Shown here: positions 44,449-63,558 of the stretch, one piece after another
Numbering within the stretch: the first letter of the stretch is position 1
Layout of the letters: every line of letters begins with the position of its first letter
DNA from: Clytia hemisphaerica
Lineage: Eukaryota; Cnidaria; Hydrozoa; Leptothecata; Clytiidae
Assembly: GCA_902728285.1 (NCBI GenBank)
Contig: CACVBU010000283.1
Span: forward strand, 523,175-587,174
Length of the DNA stretch: 64,000 bases
Direction of reading: 5' to 3'
Translations under genes and position numbers: made by a program
Notes under the pieces: generated by a model
Seen by the model: only the letters and a program-made list of their open reading frames with translations
Database searches by the model: none
What the model was told of the DNA's origin: nothing

Positions 44449-47038
44449 TTAAACGACTGAAGGAGCACTGTTATCACCAGATTGTTCCAAAGAGTTTATA
44501 TCATCAGATTGCTCCAAAGAGTTAATATCATCAGATTGCTCCAAAGAGTTGATATCATCAGATTGCTCAGTAGAGTTTATATCATCAGATTGCTCAATAG
44601 AGTTTATATTATCAGAATGCTCTGTCGTGTCCTCACCACCGTCATTCTCAAAAGCATCGACTGGAGTCTCTTCGAACAATTCCTGCGATTCTTTAAATTC
44701 TCGAGGGGTTTGAAATTGAATTTTTTCTCCTGTTTCAATATCACCCTGCTGGTCTAATTGATCCTCTTTGTTCGGGAGAACTGGTCTAATAGCGTTCCTT
44801 TGGAGTTTGTTATTTAACATGCGTTGTAGTCTATCACCGTGACGCGCATGATGATCTATAGCGCTATGTCCGTAATAATCTTTAATTAAAAGTTCTCTTT
44901 GTAGAGAATGTTTATCTTCAAGTTCTAAAATTTTGGTATTCATTGAACTTTCGAAATCATTGACCATGTCATTACATTGATTGAAAAGATCTTTGTTACC
45001 TGAACAAAAAGTATGAATTTATTATTGTTCTTTTGGCGCTTCATAGTCACGTGATATTTGACTTAAAAAAGATGATTGTCCGAAACTCTTCACAGGTTGT
45101 TAGATTGCCTCAGTTTTCAGAAAAGACAAAGAAAATACGGAACTTAAGCTACTTAAAATCAATGAGTGAATTAAGACCATTTAAGCCTGAAAATCACAAA
45201 AATAAGAACACCCGAGCCTTATACAAAATTAACTGGTTCTTATGAAAAAAAAGTAAAATAATACAACTTTTTTACCGTAGTCGCGCGGGCAGTTTTTTGT
45301 CCGCTTTATCCCCTAAAACCATCCCAATCCTTTTTTGACGCATTTTTCTATTGTCTATTGGTGCAAAAAAGGACTGGGACGGTTTTAGTGGGATAAAGCG
45401 GACAAAAAAATGCCCGCGCAGCAGTTGGTAGCTACGGTCGAAAAGGTGTATTTGGTAGGAAGAGGAAATAGATCTTACTGAGTCTTTGGGTATTTTTCTG
45501 GTTCAATTTCTTCAGATAGTGTGACCATATCAACCCAAAGATTGAGAAAACAAGAATCATTATTGTCATGGAAACCAAAGCTGTTGATAAAATACTCGAT
45601 TCTGGATCGAAAGGCGATTTCAACTCTGCTGGTGGTGATACCTGGAAGTTAATTGAAATTTTTCGATTGTCTCAAAAGTCAAAAAATATATGATTGTCAG
45701 CCATCTATTTTCCACACCAATAACTTTCAAGAAACAATTTTACACAGAGGGGTTCAAGCAGTTAGTACATGACACCCACGACACTAGCAGCTTTTTGGTG
45801 CTGATAAAAAGCTGCCCCTAAAAATGCTCAAAAAACCTCCTTCCCAAAGTGAAAACTCTTTGTCAGTTTAACCATTTCAGTTGGAATAACAGTTAGCGCT
45901 TTCACATTCAATTTGCAAGGGGAATTGTATTTTCATCGATAAAACGAGCATCCTTTATGAGAGTTTCTTGTTAAAGGTGGCCTATCATATTATCGAATAA
46001 TTGAGCATATCTAATAGCAGAACGTCGAGTTAGAGAGCGTCTACTGTAGCTTCTACAAAAAACTCTGCCTTTTATTTTTGAAGAATTTTGAAAAACTTAC
46101 TCCCATCGGTTCTGTGGAATTTTTTAAGATACCGAGTATCCAATCCTCTTCTGTTCTAATGTAACTTTTAAATTCCGTCGCCACACTTTTCAAACCTCCT
46201 GACAAAACAAAACCATACGACCGCGGGTATTCCAATTTCGTGGCCGCGCGGAGTCGTTCGTCTGTGAAGAGATGTGCGTTCGCTCCGGCCGTGTATGCAT
46301 CTAGTAGCACTCCTTCGATCTTGCCTGCAAGCAGGTCTTCTCTGAGCGCTTGGACAGTGGTATATGCTCTTTCTAAGGTAATAAAACAATGATGATTTCG
46401 TCAATAAAATACATAAGCTAATTCGAAGAGCAAATAAATCTATCCACTATAGTAATAAATAGTCATAAAAGTAGGTTGGCAAAGGGGTGGACGAAGTGTA
46501 TGTCTATAACAGGGTGAGTTGCGAAATTAAGGACTTTAAAGTAGTCTCAGTTTCCTGAAAAAAGATGTTTAATTCAACTCATGAGGTTATGTATTACCTT
46601 GTCAGTAAAAAAATTATCGGTGAAAAATTATTCGATAAAAAATTCAGTCACTTTTTTACCAACGAATTTCAAACAGATAAGGTAAACAAAAGAGTCCATC
46701 CATGGGTACCAGTTATTTCTAAGCTATCCAGAGAATCAATATTTGCACATTGAAGAAGATTCTGGAAAAGTTTTGATAAGAAATTGCCACTTTGTATAAA
46801 CAAATCATACTTACTTTCATTCACTTTTCCATTTCTCAAAAGTCCCAGTTTTTCTTCAAACGACCCATTCAAAGCCCCAACTTCGCTACCGTAAATTTTG
46901 AATTGAGCTGCACCATTTACTGTTGTTAAGGCTGTTACTATGGCTCCGATAATTAATGATGTCATCACTAAGCCAACTAGGGCCCAGACTACTGCAAAAC
47001 ATCTTGAGTAGAATTTCGTCACTGTGAAATCACCATAG
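44449..47038 (-). CDS. Receptor-channel 3' exons: filter end, TM2, S2 lobe, last TM, tail
   Basis: Exons in transcript order: 46815-47038 ([20 protein letters not shown], then [18 protein letters not shown] and [15 protein letters not shown]), 46101-46372 ([20 protein letters not shown] to STEPMG), 45479-45641 ([20 protein letters not shown], then the last TM and [11 protein letters not shown]) and 44449-44999 ([18 protein letters not shown] to the stop TAA at 44449-44451). The S2 fold is placed between two membrane segments as in iGluRs. Confidence 0.9.
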
Positions 47039-50000
47039 CTGGAAAAGTACGGTTAACAGTGATAAAAAATTAAGTAGTCGGTAGTAAAGCTAACCTCAGA
47101 GAATTCATGATATTCGTCGTCAAGTAATGTTTTATAATGGAAGCACCTGAAATAGCCTGATCGTTTGACACTAGTTTTATTGTTTGAATTAAAAACACCC
47201 CAGATATTCACCCAAGGAACGAGTGTGCTAAATTTCAACCAAATCCACCAGTCAGTGTTTTTAGTGGGAAAGTTCGAAGGAAAAGTTTAGAAAGTTTTCA
47301 AAACTTCAGAACAGACTAAGAATTCAGTCAAACACCAAAACAAAAATGTTATTAACGAAGGTTATTGTATCAAATATATACTTTTTTCAAGGCATTTAGG
47401 GAGCGGTCAAAAAGTATCTACAATCAAAGTCATAATATTTGAGAAAAAAGGAAAATTCCCTAGAAATCTTACAACCACAAACGATTTGGAAGCGCTCTAA
47501 ATTAAGTTGGACAGGTAGAACATTTAACTCTGAGTTTTAAGTCTAAACTTAAGAGTTCTGAGGACCTTAGGATCTGAGGAACTAAAAGTCCAAGAATGGT
47601 CCAATATGGCTCAGGATATAGCCTGGAAGTCTATAAACCCCTCCCGAATTGAAATATTCGAATAAATTCATCAATTTTCCCAAAAGCGACTTTTTCGCCC
47701 GAACTTTAAATTGCTGAAAACGAGGAATTAACCAAAATTTCTTGAAATGTGAAATTGAATTTCAAATATTGCTTCCTTGCTTCCTGAGCTGCACAATCTA
47801 TATATTAATAGCCGTAGTCTGTATGTGTGTTTGTGTGTCACTTTCGTTTTCGAACGCAATGTTTTGTTCTTTTAAAAGATGACTTTTGCTTCTTGCTCCA
47901 CAAATGTGTTAAATCAGATTCGCGCCGTTTTATAAAGACTTTGAGTTGTTCGATAAGTTTGTTTTGATTGATAGATTATAATATCTGCCCAGACGTGCCC
48001 GAGCCCGCCTCTTATGTTTTTTTCTTTTTTTCTCTCTATTCTTTTGTTTTATGTTTTCGAATGTAATTAACGACCTTATTTGATTTGAGACATTCGAATT
48101 CGTTTCAAAACAAAACAAAAGAACAAATTTAAAACATTTAAAACATAAGAATCACAAGATAAGTTTGTTGGAACAACTAAACAGCAACATTAACAATACA
48201 TTCGAAAGGCGGTAAAAACAAGAGATCTTTCTTCGTAAAAAGGGACTTATAAACATCTATGTCGATAATTATATTGCTGTAAATCTAAGTCATTCATTGT
48301 TGAATTCGAAAAGTTATGACGAAGGTGCCTAGCTGCCTGACTTTTGGCCCTTGGACCCTTAGCGAGACTAGAGAGAAGAAGAAACAAGCGAAATTTTGTG
48401 AAGTTTACTTCCCTTATTGGGACTAATTTGATTAAATTTCTATCTTTCTGGGGGTAAAAAGTTGAATTTTTTCCCTATTTTTACCGACTCTTAGTGGGAC
48501 TGAAGTTTGATTTTCTGATTTTTCCAACCCTTACAGGGACTGCCATTTTTAAAAAGGCATCCTTAAGAACGGCTCATGCCCGTATCCTTCTCTTGCCTAA
48601 GTACCCACGGGCTGCCTTTTTTCGACGAATCTCGTGTCATGTCTATAATTTCACTCCTCTTATCTTGACATCAAAGTTTTCCTAATCATCAACAAGTACG
48701 GCAAATGTAAAGCGAGCGAAGCGAGAAAAAAATCTAATTGCAAAGCCTTTTCGGACGTCGCAGGTCGCCGTTATGGTATAGTTTGAATAACGCCCTTTCT
48801 GATCATTTTTGCAACAATTTAAAAATCTTTTTCAAAATATGGTTAAAAGATACGTGACCTGGGAGGGACAGAGTCAAACTTTGAAGATAATTTTTCCCTT
48901 TAATTTTGACTTCATCGTAAGCCAGCTTCCCAACATCCAAAGGACTTTAAAATGCGTTCAGCAACAGCTAAACCGGCGTGCGACGCCGGGTACCGGCTAG
49001 TTTCATTTATATTCTCTGATTTTTGTGTGTTCTTAAGGGTGGAAAAAATTGTTGAACCCCCCCCCCCCCCAAATCTTCCACCCCCTCTAGTAGATACTTT
49101 ATGACCACTCTATTAAAAAAATGTTCATTTCCCGAGGTTTTAAAGGTTTCTTGGTCTAAATTAAAGTTCCGTTGGCACCCTGTTCATAAATCTTAGCTGA
49201 ATCTTAATCTTTTAGTTGAGAAAATGAAAGCGAATGAAGTTTAAGTTTAAGTTTGCCAAGGCGCAAACTTTTAACCTTCATAACAGGAGAAGACTTTCAA
49301 AACGCTTTTCCGTGCCATAAAGACGCATCCTTTTATGACGTAATGACTCGACCATTCTTATCTGGTAGTAATTGTAATCAAGCTAAGGAATAACTTGCCA
49401 AACGAACAATTACCATCAAGTCATTAATTAATTAATTAGCTTGAGCAAAAGAGCTTGACATTTCAAACCTCGAAACATTCTTCTATAAGAAATGTTAACA
49501 TTTTATAAAGATTTCCCTTTGTTTACAATCGAATTTTTATTTTTTTCGAAAATAAATGCCTTGATACCAGTGGATACCCCTTAAAACCCACAATAAAAAG
49601 TGGTACCCTCTATCTCATTGTTTAGTTGGAGTGTAAGGCTGAAACTTTTTGTGTTGAAAGTACGTTGTCTATGATTGTCTTCCCTAGCAGTGATGTTTTG
49701 TAGAAAACAGTTTTCAGTTTTTCACGGGGAAGTGAAAAAGTGCAGTTTTAGCTATTTACCCCTTAAAACCTACAAAATGGTTTTTCTCGAATAACTTTTT
49801 ACAAAAAAGTTCTTTTGACCTCAAATTTTGAACAGTGATTCACTGTAAAGTTACTAATGTTATGAATATACCATTAGTACCTAAATGATCTCAAAAATAT
49901 GTGTTAAAATCAAAATACCCCTTAAAACCTACAAAAATAAGGCTAAAAACCACAAAGTCCGACCCTTGCTAACGGGATACTCAAGCTGATGGATACAAAT

Positions 50001-53000
50001 TTGGTGTTGCTTCGTGATTCAATGGTTCAAAGACTTGCTAGAAATTCATTCCCACAACAATATTTTCATTTTTCAGGATTTCATGCCCATAATGCAATTG
50101 TGTGTGGTTTTTTCGTCAAAAACGGCTACGAAAGGCCAAAACCTTCATTCGCTTCATTTTTGACCTATGGTTCTAATGTCTTTCTAAATCTCCATCAAAT
50201 TTTGTGACATTTTGGTATGCAGCATGACCAGGTTTTGAGAAAGTCGATTTTCAGATTTTATTGATCATCACCATAAAAGTGCTTTAAAGTAGAATTTTAA
50301 GGGCCTGTCATTTTCGTTGGGGTCTATTCACGAAGATGAAAATGATTTTTTCATACCTACCATAAGTTTAGGTATCTAAAAAGTATAGGTTTTATGACCT
50401 TAAATTCATTTGTGTAATCTCTAGGTCCAAAAAACCTGATTTTTTGAAGGGATTTTTGATAAAATTTTGAATAACTTCGAATTTTAAGATACTTTAGCAT
50501 CTTTAAAATCCTTAAAATTTGGTATTTTATGAAAGAACATTTATAAGAGGTTGTAAAAAAGTGAAACATACCACATAAAATTAAATCTGGTAGTTACGAA
50601 AGCCAAAAATGCAACATTGTGGGTTTTAAGGGGTATGTGGTTTTAAGGGGTATCCACTGGTAGATTCTTTTTTTTCGAATAAATGAATTTTTAAAATGTT
50701 TCAGTGACTTTATTCTGCCATTTAAAATATCAAATGGCATAGAAACAACAGAGAAAAAGTTTTCCTTGGACTGTTCTTATAGATCAATAACTAAATCACA
50801 CATTTGACGTTTTAAAACCGCAATATTTCGACGTCACCCCTAAGGAGGATCATAGATCCAAAAGTCCAGACAAACTTTTCATTCCGATATCAACGGATAA
50901 ACGTAATGCAATTGTAAAGCATCAAAAGAATTTCACAACATTCCGTTTGGACCGAACAGTCATATAGTTAGATCACTAAAAAGTATAAAAGGGATGAGTT
51001 TTGCCGAATTTATCAGAAAGCATCTTCAAGCAACAGCAAGAAGCAACAACAAGCATCTTTTTTAAATTCATTAGTATACGGTAGGATTTGTTGTAAAACA
51101 CGAAATCCTAAGCGTTACTAAAGCTTTTGGAAAGACTCTCGGCAACAAAGCACCAAGCAAGATGACGACCATACTCAAAATCTCACTTCTCTTTGCATTT
51201 GTGATAGCAACTCAAGCATATGTTCGTGTTTGCTATTACACCAACTGGTCTCAATATCGATCTGGACTTGCCACTTATAAATTATCCAGAGATTACCAAG
51301 ATGGACTATGTACACACTTGATTTTCTCATTCGGCAAAGTCGTTTCGTCTGGCAATGGATACACAATTGCACCTTATGAATGGAATGATCAATCAGCGCT
51401 TTACAAAGAAATGCAAGATTTAAAAAAGAGAGATTCGGGATTGAAAACATTGTTAGCGATCGGTGGTTGGACTCATGGTTCAGAGGGTTTCAAGCAGATG
51501 GTCTCAACCAAAGCTAACAGAGATAGATTCGTCACCAACTCTCTTAAATATATCAAACAGTATGGTAAGTGGTGCTTTCTCAAAACTCCCGAATACAGCA
51601 AATGAAGCAATTCAGAATTTCATCTTAGTAATAATGTTCTTGAAAATATAAAACAGCTGATCACCTGCTTTCACATGTATATACATCTGAGAAAAAGCTA
51701 ATACTTTAAAAACCATATTTCCCTCCATAAGAACTCTCAAGAAAGGCGCTATGCTTTTAACCTTTCTAAGCTAAACACCGATTTTTCTTTCGTTTAGGAT
51801 TCGATGGTTTGGACATAGATTGGGAATTTCCAGCAGCTAGAGGATCACCAGCTGGAGATCGCCAACGATTCAGTTCACTTTGCAAAGAGCTTGCTGACGT
51901 TTATCACCGAGAAGGTTTGTTGGTCACTGCTGCCGTCAAAGCTGCTGCTAACGCTGTGTATAACAACTACGAAGTCGCTGAAATATCACGATCCTTAGAT
52001 TTCATTAACCTGATGACATATGATTTATATGGTTCTTGGGATAACAGACTTGGACATCATACCAACACTGATGAGAACGCTAGACCAGAGAATATCCATT
52101 ACACTGTTAAACAATGGCTTGACCAAGGTGCATCTCCAGATAAATTGGTCCTTGGTCTTGCTTCTTATGGTCGTAGCTTCACATTGAAGAATAATTGTCA
52201 AATAAACCCTGGAACACCTGCCACCATTGGAAGTACAGGACCACACACTCGTGAAAAAGGATTCTTGGCTTATTATGAAATCTGCAAGATGAATTTCCAG
52301 AACCATGTTTGTACAGAGAGCAGTCCAGCCAAAGCACCTTATGGAAGCTCTGGTGATCAATGGGTAGGATATGATGATCAACAAAGTATTGTTTACAAAA
52401 TTCAGAATGTGATGAAGAAACATAACCTCAAAGGATACATGTTCTGGGCTTTGGATCTTGATGATTTCAGTGGCAAATTTTGTAGACAAGGCAAATATCC
52501 TTTGATGAATGCAGCTAAAGCAGCGGTTCTTGTTGGAAATGTGGCTTACGCTTGTACCAATAAGAATGCTTGTGGCTCTCCACCACCCCGCACCCCTCAA
52601 CCACCCAAATCAACCACAGCCACTAAATCTCCCGCGATAACTACCACCCGCTCACCACCCAAAGTCTCTGGTAAATGCAAAGCTATTCCTCCGTATTCCA
52701 GCATTTCCGGCTTTGATGCTTGGTGTAACCAAGGTGACAATGGAATGAAGTACAAAAGTCACTGTACATGCAATTAAGAAGAATCGTACCCTGCCCAATA
52801 AAAAAACAACCTAATTTCAATACTTTTCGATACCACTTTAATGTTCCTTAACAATTTATAACAATTTTCATCTCAGGTTAACGGGCTCTCCTTTAAATAT
52901 ATCACGAAGGAACCTTCCTTCTCGCTATTTTTTAAATCAGTGAAAATAAGGGCAATTCAAAATACGTTGAAATACAGCCACTATCCAAAATGTTGATAAC

Positions 53001-56000
53001 AGTTGTCATCGATAGGTTTTCTTCAATCATTATTATGAGAGCCCTGAACCATTACATGGTAAAGATTTTCAAAATATATCAAATTTGTTTTTTAATGCCA
53101 GTTTTTAAATTATTTTTTAATATATTCAAATTAACAGTGACTATTTATTTATTTATTGCTTTATGTTTAATACTCATGATTTCACGACATCATACTTTTA
53201 AAATTTACTCATGAAGTTTTATTTTGATTTTTTCCAACCCCTCCCCCACTTATTCCGAACCCCCCAGCTATCAGGTAGCCGAGAGTAAAAGTCCTACCGG
53301 GTGCACCACAAAAAAGTTTCTCTCTTTGAAACTGATTTTTTCGAAATCTAAGAATTAAGAGATCAGAAAGATCTTTCCATCAGAAAGAAGAAAGATAAAC
53401 TTAAATTTTGATGGGTCATTTATTAAATTCGATTCATTGGATCAAAAGTTATGCTCAATTGAATAAAAAAGTTACTTTCAGAAAGTGCCCGAAAACGTTA
53501 AAAATCGACCTATTAAATTTTTATTTTAAAATTGGCAATCGTAAGAGGCTTTACATGATTAAGACCATTTTTTTCAGTAATTAAACACATAAATTTTGAA
53601 ACTGATTGATCGACATGGTTTAAAATGTTCATTAAAATCATTCCAATTTACTTTTAACGAAATCTTCCACAGATTTTTGGTTCTAGACTAGATAAAGTCT
53701 ATGTAAGGCTGGATGTACCTCGAAACCCATATTCGATGTATTTCTTTAAATTTTACCAGACTTTTTGGCTTTTTTCGACGAATCTTCCTTTATATAACAA
53801 ACTGTCAATTATACAGCTAATTATCATTTTAATGACTGAAACGAAAGTACTGATGCATCATGTTATTATGCTTCTGTTTAATTTGATAGGTCGATTTTTA
53901 ACGTTTTTGAGTACCTTCAGAAAGTAACTTTTTTATTCAATAGAGCATAACTTTCGATCTAATGAACCGAATTTGATAAATGACCCATCAAAAGTTAAGT
54001 TTATATATCTTCTTTCCAATTGAATAGGAATGGTTCTTTTAAAATTTTTAGATTTCGGGAAAATTAGTTTTAAAGAGAGAAACTTTTTTGTGGCGCACCC
54101 GGTAGATGACTGGGAGTTATATATCGACTCTATCTATTTATCTAGGAAGACAGACTCACCCATGTGTTCCTTGAGTGACGAACGCCCAATACCACCCTTC
54201 GTATACTCCGCGAATCCAACTCGTCTGGAAATCGATATTTCCGTTTGTATTGTTACATGCTTCCTGTGAAGTTAAAAGAATTCAATAAATCAAAAGGTCG
54301 AATGGCTAGAGGGGAATCTTCAATATTTCCAATTACCTTATCGGGGAAAAAATGTCGGGAGAAAGTGACGAACATTTTGAGGGGGTTACGAAATTTCCCC
54401 CCGACGAATTTTTTCCACGATATTTTATCACCCGACCAAAACTTTTACCCGATTATTTTATCCCCGACCAAAACTTTTACCCGATTTTTTAAACCGCAAC
54501 CAAAATTAAAATCTAAATTTTCTACACCTTTATTTACCGAAATTAGTGCTTTAAACGTCGAATTACTAGATCTTTCTTCGAGCTATGAAGGAAACCATTT
54601 TATTTGGACAATTTAGTTGGGTGAAAGTGACTAAATTGTAAATTTCGTCGGGGAAAAGTGACGAATTTGAAATTTTAATCGGGGGAAAGTGACGAAAATG
54701 CCTTTAGGTGACGATATTTTCCCCGACGAAGAAAAACCCCGACTAAATAAAACTCACATTGACATTTTTTCCCCGATAAGGTATCCTGACAACGAATCGA
54801 ATCAAGCGCCTTCTTTGTTTTTCTTTGAAATAGATTTTATTTCCAATACAGCAATTGTGTAAAAACTACACGATCACACGTTTTGGAAGGGAAATAAGCG
54901 GCTTCATTTCCTATCCAAAACTCTAACTTGGAAGAAAGAAGAAACAAAGGCTACTGACGCATACATATTTCAGGCGTTTATAAATTCACGGATGCTAGTC
55001 AAAAGAAGGTGCTAGAAATTGACATTTTAAACTTTTGAAATCGAAAGAAAATTCACTAAAAGGTCTCGCATTAAGAGCTACAAACTTTAATTTAATAGAA
55101 AAAAATACTTTTTTGCGTTACCGAAACTTTCGCAAATTGGGCTCTTCCAGAAAATGTCCGTACATGGGGGGTGGCGAAAAATCATTAAAATTTGCCTTGT
55201 CCGGGGGGTAAATTTGCTCGGTCCGGGGGTAATTTGGGTTGTCTGGGGGGTCAACTGATGCTTGTCCGAGGGGGGGGAGGGGGTAAACCCATTGTCCAAG
55301 GGGTCAAAAGTCACTTTGTCCGAGGGTAAATCACTGAAATATTCACCCCCCATATTTAATTTTTTTCTGGAAAAGCCCATTTTCGGAAATATATACTTAC
55401 CAGTAGCCAAACGATGAATCCAGCAGCCAACATCATCAGAAAGTTCAGTCCTATCAAGGGATAAATACCCAATATCATCATGATCATTTCAACGACAATC
55501 TCATTGATATTTTTATCTCTGACAATCGCCACAACACCTGGGTGTCCGACCAGTGGAACAAACGGATAACCAACCATTTCGTCCGAATGTGTATTCCCAA
55601 TTATCGGGAAAGATAAATCTGTGAACTCGTCAACCTCCTTTAAAATCTTTAACTCAGTCGCCTTTTGAGCGAAAGCACCGCGCCCGTTCCGTATAATATC
55701 TAGCTTGGTTGAAACAGGTCCGTTTGGTGTTTTACAGACGCCGCAAGTTGCCTGGACGACGGTATTGAGTATTTCACCGAACACTCCAGAAAGTTGATCG
55801 TCAACATCTTTGGTCAAGTAAGGTGCGAGGAGATAAAAATTGCTGGAAACCACAGGAGGACATAAACAAGTTCCTTAGTAAATAAAAACAGATTGTCAAT
55901 CGATAAGTTTTCTTGATAATTTTTTTCAAAATACCTTAAAATTGATAACTTAGTCGGGGAAAAAAATTTTTTTCGTTGGTTAAAAATTTCGTCGCTGAAC

Positions 56001-59000
56001 AACACGTCACTCTTGTGAATGTCTTTTCGTCAAGGATAAAAATTACGTCAGTTTTCCTCGACTAAGTTTCGAAAACTAAGGTATAAAGATCACCAGTAAT
56101 GCTCAAAACAAAATAAAGGCAAAATTCAGTGTTTTTTTATCTTGATTATACATGTAATTAAATAACACCAACTCACTTCCGACTACTTGGTCACTGACAC
56201 CTTCACCAAATTGATTGACAGCCATGATTTCAAAATTGTAAAACGTGTTTGAATCCAGAAACTTCAAAGTGAGGCTATTTAATGATGGATGCAAATCATA
56301 AACATCAACTTTAGGGTTGATATAAACGTCAGCTCCACTTTTGATTGGGAAGACTTTGATTTTATATGACAAGAGATCACCATGGATTTGATCAGCTGGT
56401 GGTGGAGACCAATGCATGGTCAGTTGAGTGTGTGTTTTGATGGAACTGATGTAAATGTTTTGAGGGGCTGCCGTAGGTGCTGAATAAAAACAACAAAAGC
56501 TTTCTTTATTTCTTTTAATAATGCAAACAGTCATCATAACACATGATACAAGTAGACATTTTTTAGGCTTAGTTGTTTTTATTTAGTTATGTTTTTATAA
56601 TAGTGTTCTAAGAAAATAAGAGAGCATCTGCTTTTGATATGATGTGAATGTGCTATGTGGCCTATAATGACTCTAGCCTTTAGCTCTAAGTGTTGCAAGA
56701 GTAAAACTTCTAGAATTTCAATCGAATCAATCTTACCTGAATCCAGAGTGCGAGCGCTGGCTTTGTCACACGGACCATCTCCTGCACTATTGAACGCGCA
56801 CACTTCAAATACGTATGACGTGCTCGGCTCTAGGTTACTTGTATACGCCCACCCACTGTAGTCGAAAGGTGCTGTTTCGTTTGAAACGTAAGCACCATTC
56901 GTAAAGACGTAAATACGGTAACCTAACGCTAATCCGTTCATCTCTTCCTGCGGGACAGATATCCAGGTTACGTAGACATTAAACGGGCCTGATGCTTCTG
57001 CTGTTATATTCTCCGGGGCTACGTTTGGTCCTGTGAAAAATAAGAAACACAATACACCTTTTCGACCGTAGTCGCGCGGTCAAACGTGTGTCACTTTATT
57101 ATTTAATTTACCACCCTAAACTCAATCCAATCCTTTTTTACACTTTTTCTAATGTCTTCAAGTACGAAAAAAGACTAGGGTGGTAAAACGGACAAAATAT
57201 GCCTGCGCAGCAATTGGCATCTACGGTCGAAACGGTGTGTTCATTTGAATATATAGTAATTTTATTTAAAAAAACTTATATAATTTCACTGAAAGATTGC
57301 CATCCTAGATGGCATGAAACTTTGAGTATAAAATTAACTTAAATCGTTTTCTTTATTCAAACTAGTACATATAATAAGAAGCCGGAGCGGCGTGAAGGTC
57401 CAGCTGACGTGGCAATAACCGAATGTCGTTCGTACCGGGTTCCTTAAGTGACGCAAAAAAATATCCTTCCCATCCTCCCCTCTGAGCTTCTATTCTTTGA
57501 CACTTTCTTTGTATTGCTAAGTTTTGAAAGTTTTTGATGCATTTCCCGAAATTTCGAAACTTTTGCCGCTGATGGGATTCAAACCACTCTATACAAAGCA
57601 CCTATGATTATAGAACGCCAGCAACTTAACCACTCGGCCATCGAATCACAACTGCATTAAAGAGTTGTTCAAAGTTCCTTATAAACATGGTATTTACTCC
57701 AAACTCTACCCGGGAGCTAAAACCCTAACCAGGGGATAACTCCCATCCCCAACCCTAGCCCTAACCCTACCTGACCCTACCTGAAACAACCCTTTAATCT
57801 AACCGAGAAATTTGATTCTACTACCAATTCAATCCAAAACATAGGTCAAACATCGCGCGGGTCGGCGGGACAAAAATTCTAGATCGGTGGTTGGTTTAGC
57901 CTGGACTTGTTAATTTATTGCGCGCACAGGCCCCGACAAAGACAAAATCTTTTCGATCAGTTGCTTTTTAAAGGTCCATTCTGCTGCGCGCTGGACCAAA
58001 AAACTTTATTTTGAGGTTTTTACGCTGGTCTGGTCAAATCAAACGTTCATCGCATATTTACTACGGAAATTCAGAATCATTAGCGAGTTTATGTATGTGT
58101 GTTTTTCAGCGACGGAGACGGTAAGGTTCTAATTTGAGTAGATCCTGACCAGCTGAGGACGACGGTAAATCAGCACTTTTACCGTCCTCGATTTTGCGGG
58201 GTGGAATTGCGGGTTTTTCCAAATCACTTCAGTCGCTCTACCGTCCTTAGCGAGCACCTCACTAAAAACCGGGATTTTTCATCTCGTTTCTTAGTGAGTT
58301 CCACCAATGTCAATTGAATACTATACATGGTCGGGAAGTCCCAGCTCCGAGGTTGAGATTTTTTTTATCTAGGTTACCTCGAGTTCCGAACCAAGCCGAC
58401 TTCCTGACCATGTATATTTCTAGTGACTATGGTTCCACTTTGACGATTTTCGAAAAAAAGAAGCCTTTCAAGTGTTTTGACGCAAATTCGATTATTCTGC
58501 TACTGCAGGAGCTTCGAAAAATAAAAGTGACGTCAAAAAATCGAATGTTTAGAGCCCGAAGACCCGGGCTCAAAACATTCGAAAAAGTCGCAAAATGGAA
58601 TAGACGTTAATACACCGTTTTCATGTCTCGGCAAATCCGGGTGGCCCGTCTTGCGGAACATCCCGAAATTTCGAACATGGTAGGAAAACAAGAGGGAGAC
58701 ATGAAAACCGTGTATTGCGTAAAAAAACGTGGGTCACGTCTAGTATAGGCTATACCGTCCTCAAAAGTGCAAATACGTAAAATCTGTATTTATGATATGC
58801 AACACTGGAGAGTCTTCCAAAATTTTTTAAAAAGTTCAACCCAAAACGTCACTTTTACTATTGTTTAAGTGACGTATTGGGTTGAACTTTTTGAAAATTC
58901 TCAGAAGACTCTCCAGTGTTGCATATCATGAATTAGCTTCTATGGAGGCTACATATTCAAAAATTGACGTCACACAACGAGTTCAATGACAATTGAGCAT

Positions 59001-62000
59001 CTTCTTTTTGACGTTACAGCACAAAATAGAAAACTTTTGAATAAACAAGTGATAATTAAATAATAAATAAGAAAGAGGATAATTCACTTTGAAAATTAAA
59101 CGCTTTCTTACTAAGAGCATGATGTTTCATTTCTGGAAAAACAAGTGATACTTTTATGGACCTACCTGGTTATGTATCTAACACATATATAATTGATATC
59201 TACGTGACGTGACCATTAAACAATCATTCAGAACATAAACAGTGACGATCTATTAAAATTAGTCGTTTGTTTCTTATAAAAAAAACGTTTAGAAACCAAA
59301 ATTTCATGCTCTTGAAATATTCTGTCATATTCAAGACTTCGTGAGCAAAAAAAACATCTATCTCATCAAAAAATTGAGTAATTTGGCTAAGAACATTGAT
59401 GTATGCTTATTAATAGTGATTCTTATAGATAAAGATGTGTTTTTTGAGCTGAAAATTTCGTTTTTTACAAAAATCTGCTTGAGCCATCTTTAACCTACTT
59501 TCATGCAAAAAATCTGAAAAAAACAATGATCCAATATTTCACAAAGTCCAAAAAACCCGTTTTTTAGCTGTTTTTTGGCCCAAATTTGTCCAAAAACATT
59601 TTTTTTCGAAAATCGGGCTCTGTCACATTCGAGGGTTTATAGTTATGTATCTTTGTGCAAAAATTCATAAAGAATGAAAAAGCCAATCTCGAAAAAAGGC
59701 AATACCTAAGTAATTGATAATGTGCTTATAAAAAAATATCGAATCTGGCCAGTTTTTCTATAAAAACACGCCAAGAAGCCAAAATTTCATGTCTAAACAC
59801 ACATATTCTTCAAAAGTAAGCCCTAATGAGCAAAAAAAACATCTATCCCATAGAAAAATTTAGTAATTTGACTAAGAACATTGATGTATGCTTATTAATA
59901 GTGATTCTTATAGATAAACATGCATTTTTTGAGCCAACAAATTTTTTTTTGCAAAGATCTGCTTGAGCCATCTTTTACCTATGATGGTACCCTACTTTCA
60001 TGCAAAAAATCAGAAAAAATTAATGATCCAATTTCTCACAAAGTCCAAAAAACCCGTTTTTTAGCCGTTTTTTGGCCCAAATTTGCCCAAGAAATTTTTT
60101 TTTCGAAAATCGGGCTCCGTCACATTTTGGCCACCACCATTTTGCACCTTTGGACCAAAAATCAAAAGATTCCTATGATTCAATCCTGAGAAAAATTGGT
60201 AACAGACGAACGGACGAACGGATGAACGAACGAACACAGGTTAATTTATAGGACCTCCACCGGGGTAGGTCCAAAAACTACCTAGAAACCAGGTTTACGA
60301 GCTTATAAATTGGAATTATGTTTGAAAACGAGACACATTTTAGCGATAAACGGATAATAAACCATTTATTTGGACGCAGTCTCATCTAATATGAAAAATA
60401 TAGGGCTACGAGAAATGCACCATTGCAATGTCTTCTAACATTACATCACGGACCCAACATCTGATTGGCTGTAAGTGACGTAAAATCAGTCAATACGTCA
60501 CTTTCAACCAATCAGCTGTTGGGTCCATGGAAGACATTGCAAATGGTGCATATGTCTAAACAATAAACCAGATAAATGAAAAACCGTTGAAGATTTTACA
60601 TGTTTAGTAGCATTCAAAAATTATCATATCTTACTTTTTTCCATTGTCCAGATCGAAGCCAAAGTACTCGCAACTCCATTTCCTTTAGCTGTTGAATATG
60701 CTAATACTCTATAAACGTACTCCGTCCCTGGTTTCAGCCACGTCAAATGAGCTGTAGTATTTTCAGTAGCATACGTAGAGTAGGGTTGATTTGAAAGTAA
60801 TTTTTCACGATAAAAGATGATGTAATTATCAACATTTGATTGGTTGAGAGCGTTCCATGAAATTGATAAAACTTCCGGTGACGGCGAAAACGCGCTAACA
60901 TTGGAAGGTGGTTCTGAGAGCACTGGAGAGAATAAAAATAACTAGCAATAAAAAAGATTTCATGAGATCAATTTTTAAGAATCTTAACTTGATCTTGATA
61001 TGCTGAAGAAAGTAGAATTTTCGTTTACTAGTGGTAAATTTGAGCAGAGAGTCTGGTGCAAACATTTAAGAATTTAGATTTTCACCTTTTTTGGCAGGTG
61101 TTGGCGAAATATCAATACAAATTTGATTGAAGTTAATTTAAGACGCTAGGGTTGATAGAGGTAATAAATTGAGGAAAAAACTTACAGTCAGGCCCAATAC
61201 TCAATGAGATATTTTCACCAGCAACCAAATCCAATTTTCCAAGTGCTTGACTGGTTTCGATTACGTCTTGAAAGAAAAGGAATTGCTCCATTTCCATACT
61301 CGCATAGTTGATGGTGAAGTTGGCAACAACACTACCAGGCCTGTGAAAAAGGTTAATAATTTGATTTCGATAAATTAAGCCTGAAATTATCAATTTGTCT
61401 CGAATCAATCGCAAGTGTAAATCCAACTCAATGGCGGTGCAAAGTCAATTAAATATTATAAGTATCGTTATCTTAAAGAGCGGCGTGAAGTTAATTATCA
61501 TTTGACTTTAAACCATCATTGAGTCAAGGAAAACGTCAGATTGAGCTCGGATATAATTACAATCACAAATATCTTATATAAAACACTAGATCGAGCCATT
61601 TTTCCCCAATTTTGAATATTGGCAGGGAGTTGAGTCGGCTTGACGGTTTAGTTGACAACGCAAATTACCTTATCTTGCGATCTCCGAAACAATAACAAAC
61701 CTAATAATTACTTACTCTAAAGAATGACAGACAACATTGAGCACTTGGCCCTCCATAACATCTCCACCATCTTCGTAAATACTTGTTACCTGGGAAACAA
61801 AAATAAAAATTTAAAAACAACAATTCTTTATTGGCTACTGGCTAATGACCAGCTGAACATTGTGTTAAATCACCGGTCTTGCTCAAGATTGAGCTGTTGG
61901 TAAACAGTCAGGGTGAAAGGTAAATCAATAAATTCATGGAGCGCGTAATATTTTTTGTCTGTATGCTTAATTATAGTCCGTATAAAAAAACCCCGATCTG

Positions 62001-63558
62001 GAAGCCTTTTGTTTCTTTCCATTGTTTCTAACTTGAACTTGCGTTGAGAAATTGTTTTGTTTTGCTCAAAAACTGAGCAAATCGATTTTCATCTTTTGAT
62101 AAGAACAAAGGAAAAAACTGACAAAAAGTTAAAACAATAAGCCTACAGACCAGTGTTTTTCATAAGGACTATGGCTTAATTTGACTGAATTTAAGGAGAT
62201 ATATGTTTTACACATCTTCAACTTGTGTACATACCAGTCTCAACAAGGTTGTTAACAAAACACATTTTCGGAAGGACTGGGAATCTAGGGGAATTCAAGT
62301 TTTAAATTTGGTTACTTTTAAGCACAATTGTCGCTCAACAAATAATACTTATTCATGATATGCACCATTGCAATATCTTTCACGGACCCAACAGCTGATT
62401 AGTTGCAAATGACGTATTGACTGATTTTACGTCACTTTCAACCAATCAGCTATTGGGTCCGTGATGTAATGTCAGAAAATATTGCAATGGTGTATATCAT
62501 GAATACTCCAAAATGTTGTCCATAAAACAGCCTTCTAAAAGTTTACCTGAGCTTGGAGGTTACTTTCAAAAATCTTGTACTCGGGATCGTTTGGATTTGT
62601 CATCCCTTCGGTAAAGTCCGCCTCGATATGAAGCACTAAGTTTGCGTAAGATTCTAAAAAGTGGAAAGAGTACACACACATCGTTTTTATAAAAACATCC
62701 TAATTTTTTGAGGCCCTCAGATGTTCTTAACTTTTTGAGTTGTAAACCTAGGAATATTCCTAAAATGTTTTTAATTTCACCATTTTGTGAGTATTTTTAT
62801 GCGGTTTCCTAAAAAGTTGAGTATTTTAGAATCCGTGAAAACTTGAAAACTTGATTAGCTTTGAGACGAATCCAAATAATCGGAAATATTTAGGCTTGAT
62901 ACATTACAAATGTTTAATCCGCTAGCTAACATACCTTCACAAGGCATTGTATTACAAGGTTGTCTATCTTGACTCGATCCGGGTATCTCTGAGCACGGAA
63001 CGCCCCCATAATTCGCCGGAATACACGTTCTTCGCCGGACATAGTGTCCAGTATTGCACGGTTTATCACAAGAAGACCAAACACTCCACCCAGCCCAAGT
63101 TGCATCCACTGAAAAAGCAGAAAGATTTCCAGATAATAACATTAATAAGCCCGTGTGATTAATAGCAACAAATTTAATTCTATCATTGTGAATCTTTTTT
63201 AACGATTCAACGTTTTTAGAACACAAGTGTCATGGCCTTCTACGATTTCAAATTAATAGAAATTTTGATTGACCGCAAAGCAGTTGGGCTGCTTTGTTCA
63301 AACACCCTTCATCACCCAGCCACCTTCAAAATATCTAGAGAGTCAATTATCAATATCTATCCAACGGCCATAGTTAAAATATTTTACCTGGGCAATTACC
63401 CACACCACAACTTATCAAATCCTCCAAACTTCCAACACAATCATTTCCGTCATATTGAGGTACCGGACTATTGCATGCCCGCATTCTTCTAGTGGACCCA
63501 CCACCACATGTGACGTCACAATTCGACCATGAACCCCACTCAGATAAGCCACCGTGGA
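44449..63558 (-). CDS. TSP1-SEA-FN3 receptor with iGluR-like channel core and GYGD filter, 5' partial
   Basis: Predicted type I membrane receptor-channel, 14 exons in the window encoding about 1,116 residues; the 5' end lies beyond 64000. Approximate positions in the visible part: TSP1 1-56 and 57-115, SEA 116-227, FN3 at 228-323, 324-421 and 422-522, PBP-like S1 lobe 523-645, TM1 about 648-680, pore with T-H-G-Y-G-D at about 712-717, TM2 about 725-752 ([20 protein letters not shown]), S2 lobe ([26 protein letters not shown]) to about 898, last TM ([19 protein letters not shown]), and a cytoplasmic tail with acidic repeats. Topology and S2 motifs follow ionotropic glutamate receptors, while the filter and TM2 resemble potassium channels, as in bacterial GluR0. 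Ligand and ion selectivity are inference. Every GT-AG junction is in phase. A chitinase gene lies in its largest intron on the other strand. Confidence 0.88.
44470..44630 (-). repeat. 27-bp coding tandem repeats in channel tail
   Basis: Five to six 27-bp units encode acidic E-Q-S-D-D-I-N-S-L repeats at the extreme cytoplasmic C-terminus. Units are slightly diverged ([18 protein letters not shown]), so the number is likely to vary between individuals or species. Confidence 0.9.
45264..45448. mobile_element. MITE, CACCTTTTCGACCGTAG family, copy 3
   Basis: 185 bp, TA-flanked, ends CAACTTTTTTACCGTAG and CTACGGTCGAAAAGGTG. It lies in the last intron of the receptor-channel gene, 30 bp from exon 45479-45641. 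Confidence 0.85.
49567..50660. mobile_element. TA-flanked element with CCAGTGGATACCCCTTAAAA ends
   Basis: Left end CCAGTGGATACCCCTTAAAA and right end GGGGTATCCACTGG, flanked by TA at 49565-49566 and 50661-50662. ACCCCTTAAAACC-type blocks are repeated inside. No transposase. It ends about 320 bp upstream of the chitinase TATA box. Confidence 0.8.
50984..50990 (+). promoter_or_regulatory. TATA box of the chitinase gene
   Basis: TATAAAA within AAAAGTATAAAAGGGATGAG, about 172 bp before the start codon, with transcript start expected near 51010-51020. It is the only clear TATA-type promoter seen in the window. Confidence 0.6.
51162..52777 (+). CDS. Secreted GH18 chitinase with C-terminal cysteine module
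   Basis: Hydrolyses beta-1,4 bonds of chitin outside the cell. Exons 51162-51564 and 51798-52777 (intron 233 bp, G|GA phase) encode 460 residues. The signal peptide is about residues 1-19 ([19 protein letters not shown]) before [16 protein letters not shown]18 landmarks: [21 protein letters not shown], and the catalytic D-G-L-D-I-D-W-E, where Glu is the acid/base, followed by [10 protein letters not shown] and [16 protein letters not shown]. After the catalytic domain comes a Pro/Thr/Ser linker ([18 protein letters not shown]), then about 35 residues with five cysteines ([15 protein letters not shown]) that may bind chitin. The gene lies inside a receptor-channel intron on the opposite strand, with its own TATA box and AATAAA signal. 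Identity is certain; the role (defence, digestion or exoskeleton turnover) is not shown. Confidence 0.96.
52797..52802 (+). terminator. Polyadenylation signal of the chitinase gene
   Basis: AATAAA 20 bp after the chitinase stop codon, at the expected position for a short 3' UTR. Confidence 0.65.
53294..54105. mobile_element. Element with about 250-bp inverted ends (CTACCGGGTGCACCACAAAA)
   Basis: Left end CTACCGGGTGCACCACAAAA, right end TTTTGTGGCGCACCCGGTAG. Matching continues inward through GATGGGTCATTTATTAAATT-like and AACGTTAAAAATCGACCTAT-like blocks. It ends 55 bp from channel exon 54160-54263, with a short SINE-tail-like piece (ATCGACTCTATCTATTT) between. Confidence 0.8.
54160..63558 (-). 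CDS. Receptor-channel ectodomain, S1 lobe, TM1 and pore-helix exons
   Basis: Exons in transcript order: 63388-63558 (TSP1: [20 protein letters not shown]), 62935-63108 (TSP1: [20 protein letters not shown]), 62547-62653, 61716-61789 and 61186-61340 ([38 protein letters not shown]), 60635-60922, 56737-57030 and 56177-56479 (one FN3 each: [57 protein letters not shown]), 55401-55873 (S1 and TM1: [39 protein letters not shown]) and 54160-54263 ([30 protein letters not shown]). Each FN3 lies on its own exon with the same 1-base phase, typical of shuffled extracellular domains. No GSVVV-type SEA autocleavage motif was demonstrated. Confidence 0.9.
54336..54781. mobile_element. TA-flanked MITE with CCTTATCGGGGAAAAAATGT ends
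   Basis: Ends CCTTATCGGGGAAAAAATGT and CATTTTTTCCCCGATAAGG, flanked by TA. The interior is rich in GAAAGTGACGAA and CCCCGACCAAA. It lies 72 bp from the pore-helix exon 54160-54263. Confidence 0.85.
55947..56068. mobile_element. Small MITE with AACTTAGTCGGGGAAAA ends
   Basis: Ends AACTTAGTCGGGGAAAA and TTTTCCTCGACTAAGTTT. Related in style and interior to the 54336-54781 element. It lies between channel exons 55401-55873 and 56177-56479. Confidence 0.65.
57055..57237. mobile_element. MITE, CACCTTTTCGACCGTAG family, copy 4
   Basis: Ends CACCTTTTCGACCGTAG and CTACGGTCGAAACGGTG; TA on the left and TG on the right, where the duplication seems mutated. It lies just upstream of FN3 exon 56737-57030, 24 bp from its acceptor. 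Confidence 0.85.
57562..57650 (-). mobile_element. tRNA-like SINE head
   Basis: Reads TCGATGGCCGAGTGGTTAAG (A box) and GAGTGGTTTGAATCCCATC (B box) on the minus strand, resembling a type II tRNA with a long variable arm. The acceptor stem does not pair well, so a SINE head is preferred over a functional tRNA. The body may run down to about 57365. Confidence 0.55.
57705..57790. repeat. Degenerate telomere-like CCCTAA cluster
   Basis: Several CCCTAA/CCCTAC-type units (CCCTAGCCCTAACCCTACC, AACCCTAACCAGGGG) in about 85 bp inside a channel intron. Too short and degenerate to be a telomere. Confidence 0.5.
58078..58265. repeat. Dispersed repeat related to 7757-7925
   Basis: Shares TTAGCGAGTTTATGTATGTG, CGACGGAGACGGT and AAATCACTTCAGTC with the copy near 7757. 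Borders are approximate. Confidence 0.6.
58323..58415. repeat. Short inverted repeat ATACATGGTCGGGAAGTC
   Basis: Arms ATACATGGTCGGGAAGTC and GACTTCCTGACCATGTAT around about 60 bp, with one mismatch. Confidence 0.7.
58609..58716. repeat. Short inverted repeat AATACACCGTTTTCATGTCT
   Basis: Arms AATACACCGTTTTCATGTCT and AGACATGAAAACCGTGTATT with one mismatch; a likely small MITE. Confidence 0.7.
58792..58929. repeat. Hairpin MITE ATGATATGCAACACTGGAGA
   Basis: Nearly perfect arms from ATGATATGCAACACTGGAGA to its complement at 58910-58929, with a GTTCAACCCAA/TTGGGTTGAAC and ACGTCAC/GTGACGT centre. Its layout resembles the AACCAATCAGCTG family but the sequence differs. Confidence 0.8.
59158..60272. 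mobile_element. TGGACCTACC-ended non-autonomous element
   Basis: Ends TGGACCTACC and GGTAGGTCC(A). The interior has duplicated blocks with ATCGGGCTC(C/T)GTCACATT and CATGCAAAAAATC(A/T)GAAAAAA. Same family as 23868-25133 and 10508-10805. It lies in the intron between FN3 exons 1 and 2 of the channel gene. Confidence 0.75.
60416..60552. repeat. Hairpin MITE, AACCAATCAGCTGTTGGGTC family
   Basis: Arms GCACCATTGCAATGTCTT and AAGACATTGCAAATGGTGC, inner ACGGACCCAAC/GTTGGGTCCAT, centre GTGACGTAAAATCAGTC. Confidence 0.8.
62351..62505. repeat. Hairpin MITE, AACCAATCAGCTGTTGGGTC family
   Basis: Outer arms ATTCATGATATGCACCATTG and CAATGGTGTATATCATGAAT, inner ACGGACCCAACAGCTGATT and AATCAGCTATTGGGTCCGT. 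It is the most complete copy and ends 42 bp from SEA exon 62547-62653. Confidence 0.85.

Follow-up and report, generated by a model that had tools for sequence, protein, structure and literature searches.

The window analyzed here, a stretch of 64,000 nucleotides from a contig (CACVBU010000283.1) of the hydrozoan Clytia hemisphaerica, carries on its minus strand a gene for a predicted receptor-channel that combines features of the ionotropic glutamate receptors (iGluRs) with the selectivity filter signature of a potassium (K+) channel. Fourteen exons from position 63558 to 44449, separated by 13 GT-AG introns with consistent phases, give one open frame of 1,116 amino acids with a stop codon, in which we read, in order, two TSP1 domains, a SEA-like domain, three FN3 domains, a first lobe (S1), membrane segment M1, a pore with the filter T-H-G-Y-G-D, segment M3, a second lobe (S2), segment M4 and a tail (Table 1). 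The gene covers at least 44449-63558 and continues at its 5' end past the window edge. The original prediction had placed a glutamate-receptor-like channel with this filter at 46815..54263, a range that holds the two pore exons and leaves out the exon with S1 and M1. The observation itself is confirmed and is larger than first noted, with a TSP1-SEA-FN3 ectodomain and a gene family now added to it.

The filter is encoded in two halves on either side of a 7.1-kb intron. Exon 54263-54160 ends in ACATGG before the donor GTGAGT, exon 47038-46815 is preceded by TTTTCCAG, and the joined pore exons are open in frame 0, with many stops in both other frames. When the genome of Clytia itself (417 Mb, 951 contigs) was searched with the core protein, 98 exon matches were obtained, and we fetched 20 stretches around part of them. 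A YGD or FGD filter half is present in 19 of these stretches, the twentieth (L042) having S1 and FN3 pieces and overlapping L041. Both halves were seen in 12 loci (the window, L031-L033, L035-L041 and L043), all of which split the codon of the first filter glycine as GG/N by a phase-2 intron with GT and AG borders; the join of the pore exons is thus not due to chance, and the in-phase joining proposed earlier holds. Five further loci (L044-L048) carry the GYGD motif unsplit, without an intron. K2P genes are interrupted at this glycine codon as well, in a different phase. The join of S1-M1 to the first pore exon is supported as well, because L031 and L032 carry both within a single exon. The filter lies between M1 and M3, and the third membrane segment expected after S2 was found as M4.

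Filters could be read in 17 loci, and the pattern T/S-x-G-Y/F-G-D is preserved in every one of them, with serine only in L037. TVGYGD is the most frequent form (nine loci: L035, L039, L040, L043-L048), followed by THGYGD (five: the window, L031, L033, L036, L041) and by single cases of THGFGD (L032), SQGFGD (L037) and TQGYGD (L038); three loci in which the second half alone was seen (L034, L049, L050) stand outside this count. Profile searches of the window protein recovered the channel part of the molecule, with Ion_trans_2 matching at an expectation value (E) of 1e-6 (29 bits, cut-off 22.5). The same domain was found at E up to 1 in all 12 members of our alignment A1, and the closest matches of the window protein in the PDB are K+ and related cation channels.

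The window gene belongs to a larger family. At E up to 0.001, the genome contains 57 places with a match to Pfam Lig_chan (places, not genes; near-identical copies may be alleles), and a K+-type filter is present in 28 of the 56 that were read, one not having been fetched. In 23 of these 28 places T-x-G-Y-G-D stands in one frame, and in the other five (L085, L092, L096, L102, L106) an exon begins at YGD, the first filter half being seen for L085 alone. Ordinary iGluR pores are found in the remaining 28, which include two exons of one NMDA-like gene (L055/L065). As the window gene falls outside the 57, this figure gives a minimum size for the family. Nine relatives (L048, L054, L056-L062) consist of one open frame of 471-518 amino acids, some cut by the fetched stretch, and carry by eye S1, M1, TVGYGD, M3, S2 and, where the frame reaches it, M4. 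Selection on the window gene is purifying, with ratios of nonsynonymous to synonymous substitution (dN/dS) over 1,413 nt of 0.161, 0.165 and 0.130 against L031, L032 and L033, respectively.

Several of the matches to the family lie close together, in clusters with long open frames on contigs C75, C129, C504 and C38 (e.g., six places on C75 and nine on C129), and many of the clustered places are single-exon TVGYGD receptors where read; our guess is that the clusters arose by tandem duplication after retroposition. Near-identical or equal-scoring pairs, some in opposite orientation, were also seen (L039/L040 on C753, C16 48645/230456, and C904/C234), and these may be duplications or haplotype copies. 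L034 (contig C49) is a near-identical copy of the 3' part of the window gene (M4 100% and M3 98.6% identical); a stop interrupts its S2, and its M3 has an in-frame gap of one residue. It is either a broken copy or an assembly variant.

The original prediction also had S1-like and S2-like lobes flanking the pore, and at the profile level both look like periplasmic-binding-protein (PBP)-like lobes of the type II fold. The comparison was bridged by cyanobacterial receptors of the Synechocystis GluR0 type, of which 30 loci were cut out; the cleaned target comprises 30 ligand-binding domain (LBD) rows, including the GluR0 LBD of known structure, and excludes the row L148, which starts in the pore, together with leader columns, a step that changed the scores little and took the K+ channel pore control from 96.9% to 0.1%. 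Against this target, a pore-less profile of eight window-type LBDs aligned over 163 columns and both lobes (hhalign 97.0%, E 8.3e-11, score 75.0; best of 60 column shuffles, 20.8). The LBD profile of the nine single-exon relatives reached 92.8% (score 52.7; maximum of 60 shuffles, 24.3), and the two combined 97.9% (score 91.8; maximum of 60 shuffles, 17.4). Negative controls (FN3, K+ channel pores, ordinary iGluR pores and the family's own pores) remained at or below 0.3%, and the positive controls, i.e., the GluA2 LBD and three ordinary S1 lobes, gave 99.1% and 98.3%. A 10-row LBD profile without bacterial rows found in the PDB an arginine-binding PBP (3kzg, E=5.5e-4), the sole chain below 0.001. 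With E up to 10 it matched 36 chains. Binding proteins, identified as such by title or by being shared with the GluR0 query, account for 25 of these, 13 of which are one lysine/arginine/ornithine-binding protein, and the other eleven belong to Far1, RPN13, SRP68, NahF and a GGDEF protein. In our sampling of the cyanobacterial phylum, GluR0-type receptors occurred in 53 of 291 genomes (E up to 1e-15).

The pores of the family fall together with those of GluR0 and K+ channels and away from those of the ordinary iGluRs of the same genome. The window-type pore profile scores 140 with GluR0, 84 with four K+ channels and 39 with ordinary iGluRs, the corresponding values for the single-exon type being 178, 107 and 43. 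In the pore tree, window and single-exon types form one clade (96/97) and the ordinary iGluRs of the genome are separated (100/99); given a short alignment, long branches and K+ channel rows consisting of four manually entered sequences, any branching order among GluR0, the K+ channels and this family is tentative. Synechocystis GluR0 and its cyanobacterial relatives share with the Clytia family the order S1-M1-TVGYGD-M3-S2 and match it in both LBD and pore profiles, but they have no ectodomain, retain the arginine after TP/TA-E and, in L116 and L117, terminate behind S2, lacking the M4 of the Clytia gene. AMPA, kainate, delta and NMDA receptors have PBP-like lobes too, and their order, S1-M1-P-M3-S2-M4, is that of the Clytia gene. 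The ordinary iGluRs of Clytia differ in their pore (e.g., GLTFQRDLAGKTP or WGVLLNSG) and SYTANL-like M3, and the two scanned with S1 (L063, L064) match Lig_chan-Glu_bd, whereas the window protein does not. Voltage-gated, two-pore-domain and other K+ channels share the T-x-G-Y-G-D filter and the Ion_trans_2 domain; unlike the Clytia gene they are not known to have S1/S2 lobes, and the iGluR pore is inverted relative to theirs (PMC6385376, PMC2950845).

Missing from the original comparison with AMPA/NMDA types and GluR0, which was right as to iGluR topology and the likeness to GluR0, is a published animal iGluR with a K+ channel pore signature, AvGluR1 of the rotifer Adineta vaga (PMC12226733, PMC12332018, PMC11479355, PMC3483616). 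By description alone, AvGluR1 is likewise a eukaryotic-type iGluR, in which four segments cross or re-enter the membrane and the pore loop carries a K+ channel signature, and the Clytia gene differs from it in its non-bilaterian host, many loci, TSP1-SEA-FN3 ectodomain, THGYGD instead of T-V-G-Y-G, and lost S1 arginine. In the titles, abstract openings and excerpts that the literature search covered, no K+-signature iGluRs were found other than AvGluR1, GluR0 and other prokaryotic ones. Our reading of the family is that of an ancient GluR0-like lineage, possessing M4 as AvGluR1 is described to do, that later expanded in Clytia; of the terms used for it before, 'intermediate form' fits less well than a relict lineage, later expanded.

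The ectodomain of the window gene occupies, upstream of S1, the position in which iGluRs typically carry an amino-terminal domain. The whole TSP1-SEA-FN3-receptor order is kept in L031, and FN3-like matches, some weak, occur in L032, L033, L036-L040, L042 and L050. No LIVBP-like amino-terminal domain is among the Pfam matches of the window protein, whose 5' end lies outside the window. For the nine single-exon relatives, the frames read contain no match to TSP1 or FN3, and further exons may exist upstream of them. No example of a TSP1-SEA-FN3 ectodomain on a receptor channel turned up in the excerpts of the literature searched.

The structure of the gene, its domain order, the relationships of its lobes and pore, and its selection are supported by these comparisons, and we consider it fairly likely that the gene product is a membrane receptor belonging to a GluR0-like, K+-signature branch of the iGluR superfamily; we propose this receptor to be ligand-gated, hyperpolarising and anchored to matrix or cells. 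From the sequence we infer a tetramer, ligand gating, K+ selectivity and anchoring. Four subunits would form an inverted K+ channel-type pore, the S1/S2 clamshell would close on a small ligand and pull M3 open, and the TSP1-SEA-FN3 stalk would anchor the receptor to the matrix or a neighboring cell. K+ would then exit the cell, and the receptor would therefore hyperpolarise and quiet it instead of exciting it. In iGluRs, Arg485 and an acidic residue hold the amino acid (PMC6307864). The S1 arginine is lost in the window type, in which GNTHSD is aligned with the SVTPER of GluR0 types, and the YGFV strand is kept, as is the S2 aspartate (LLDAYTA), invariant in all eight window-type LBD rows. With the backbone-holding arginine replaced while the aspartate was kept, an ordinary alpha-amino acid is unlikely to be the ligand.

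The interpretation first given to this locus is partly supported. A number of results weigh against such a receptor. The filter of the window gene, THGYGD, departs from TVGYGD, Lig_chan matches the window protein at E=0.68 (10.2 and 13.3 bits, gathering score 30.8), and its M3 is without SYTANLAAF, a motif of the SYTANLAA type named for animal iGluRs (PMC3483616). Single-sequence searches of the window protein found mainly the pore, with no PBP or Lig_chan-Glu_bd match; an 8-member LBD profile had no significant match in the PDB (best E 0.034), and hhalign of the LBD profile with GluA2 alone gave no signal. The S2 aspartate is an asparagine in three of four single-exon rows (L048, L056, L061). 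Among the relatives, the Lig_chan gathering score is passed by the single-exon L054 (44.1) and L062 (40.4), and the sole hint of a lobe in single-sequence searches is a PBP_like match, below cut-off, on S2 of L062 (E 0.0026).

K+ selectivity, in particular, is predicted less surely owing to the filter histidine of the window gene, and it is possible, if somewhat unlikely, that the same receptor family kept the filter signature and lost the selectivity, giving a depolarising cation channel. Histidine or glutamine replaces the valine or isoleucine of K+ channels in 8 of the 17 filters (THGYGD, THGFGD, SQGFGD, TQGYGD), and AvGluR1, which has the motif, is given as Na+-permeable in one source (PMC3483616), yet others term it K+-selective (PMC11479355, PMC12226733); the signature itself has no exception among the 17 filters, nine of which are plain TVGYGD. 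Loss of the S1 arginine and the large ectodomain of adhesion modules would also suit an adhesion or mechanically gated K+ channel, whose lobes no longer bind a ligand and whose TSP1/FN3 stalk pulls on the pore. We regard this as unlikely, given the invariant S2 aspartate of the window type, the purifying selection on the S1 and S2 exons, and the lobe-like flanks kept by the nine single-exon relatives with no TSP1/FN3 match in the frames read (upstream exons are possible). It is about as improbable that an ordinary cnidarian iGluR secondarily acquired K+ channel pore exons in place of its own: the pore does resemble K+ channels, and it is encoded in separate exon cassettes, the filter being divided by a phase-2 intron, but pore scores with GluR0 types exceed those with the four manually entered K+ channel sequences, and the LBD matches GluR0 types and gave nothing in hhalign with GluA2 alone or three ordinary S1 lobes (targets of one and three rows). 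A pseudogene or an artefact of exon joining, for which the S2 stop of L034 might speak, is very improbable for a window copy that is open throughout, with consensus splice sites, dN/dS of 0.13-0.17 and the same joins in its relatives.

Animal iGluRs are the textbook excitatory channels, thought to derive from a K+-selective bacterial form. AvGluR1, the sole animal exception named in the literature searched, is the published precedent for a pore such as that found here; new in Clytia are the non-bilaterian host, the expansion of the family and the TSP1-SEA-FN3 ectodomain. The mitochondrial contig of the genome (L051) agrees with a non-bilaterian, probably medusozoan, host: cytb and cox1 are read on one strand, ARAGORN finds no tRNA, both frames are open under genetic code 4, which speaks against Bilateria, AGR codons occupy conserved arginine sites, and the gene order is of the hydrozoan kind. 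We postulate, tentatively and as a possibility that we hold for less than probable, that non-bilaterians kept an ancestral K+-signature iGluR branch, which expanded here to about half of the receptor-channel repertoire, and that one branch of it became matrix-tethered, ligand-gated K+ channels, i.e., a fast inhibitory arm within a receptor family known in animals for excitation. The window gene is an unusual candidate for a receptor that would quiet cells, and a K+-signature receptor family under selection, present at multiple loci of a non-bilaterian, makes the timing of the loss of K+ selectivity directly testable and would hint at inhibition through ligand-gated K+ channels in chemosensation or early nervous systems.

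The exons are listed in Table 1. For the S1 exon, the acceptor at 55842 was rejected, being out of phase with the third FN3 exon; L031, L032 and L033, when compared, place the start at 55873. The idea of a cryptic exon between FN3 and S1 was likewise abandoned.

Table 1 Exons of the minus-strand receptor gene, and the intron that divides its filter, in window coordinates
Feature	Position	Strand	Basis
First TSP1 domain seen in the window (gene start outside)	63388..63558	-	GT-AG, phase-consistent; Pfam TSP_1 E=2e-18 for the protein, two stretches
Second TSP1 domain	62935..63108	-	Pfam TSP_1; phase-consistent join
SEA-like domain, part 1	62547..62653	-	Pfam SEA E=0.0037, 17.8 bits, below cut-off 26.4; matched in L031
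SEA-like domain, part 2	61716..61789	-	Pfam SEA; L031 match; phase-consistent join
End of SEA-like region	61186..61340	-	L031 match; phase-consistent join
FN3 domain 1	60635..60922	-	Pfam fn3 E=5.9e-30 for the protein, three stretches
FN3 domain 2	56737..57030	-	Pfam fn3; phase-consistent join
FN3 domain 3	56177..56479	-	Pfam fn3; 94% identity in L031
S1 lobe and M1	55401..55873	-	Acceptor set by comparison with L031, L032, L033; PBP-like lobe by hhalign
Pore helix and first filter half (..TQGTHG)	54160..54263	-	In-phase join; relatives
7.1-kb intron between filter halves	47039..54159	-	GT-AG join; relatives
Second filter half (YGD), M3, start of S2	46815..47038	-	In-phase join; relatives
S2 lobe	46101..46372	-	Join, alignment, hhalign
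S2-M4 linker and third membrane segment M4	45479..45641	-	Hydropathy peak 2.40; phase-consistent
Tail with 9-residue repeats, stop codon	44449..44999	-	Phase-consistent join; 27-base repeats 44472-44622

The repeats in the encoded protein tail come from 5.6 copies of the 27-base unit. Inside the filter-splitting intron, on the plus strand at about 51153-52774, lies a chitinase-like gene of glycosyl hydrolase family 18, two open stretches of which match Glyco_hydro_18 (E 8.2e-23 and 2.5e-56). Two other introns hold, at about 60400-60560 and 62360-62520, similar stretches with inverted sequence, by eye, of the GTGACGTA...CAGTCAATACGTCA kind, which look like copies of a small mobile element.

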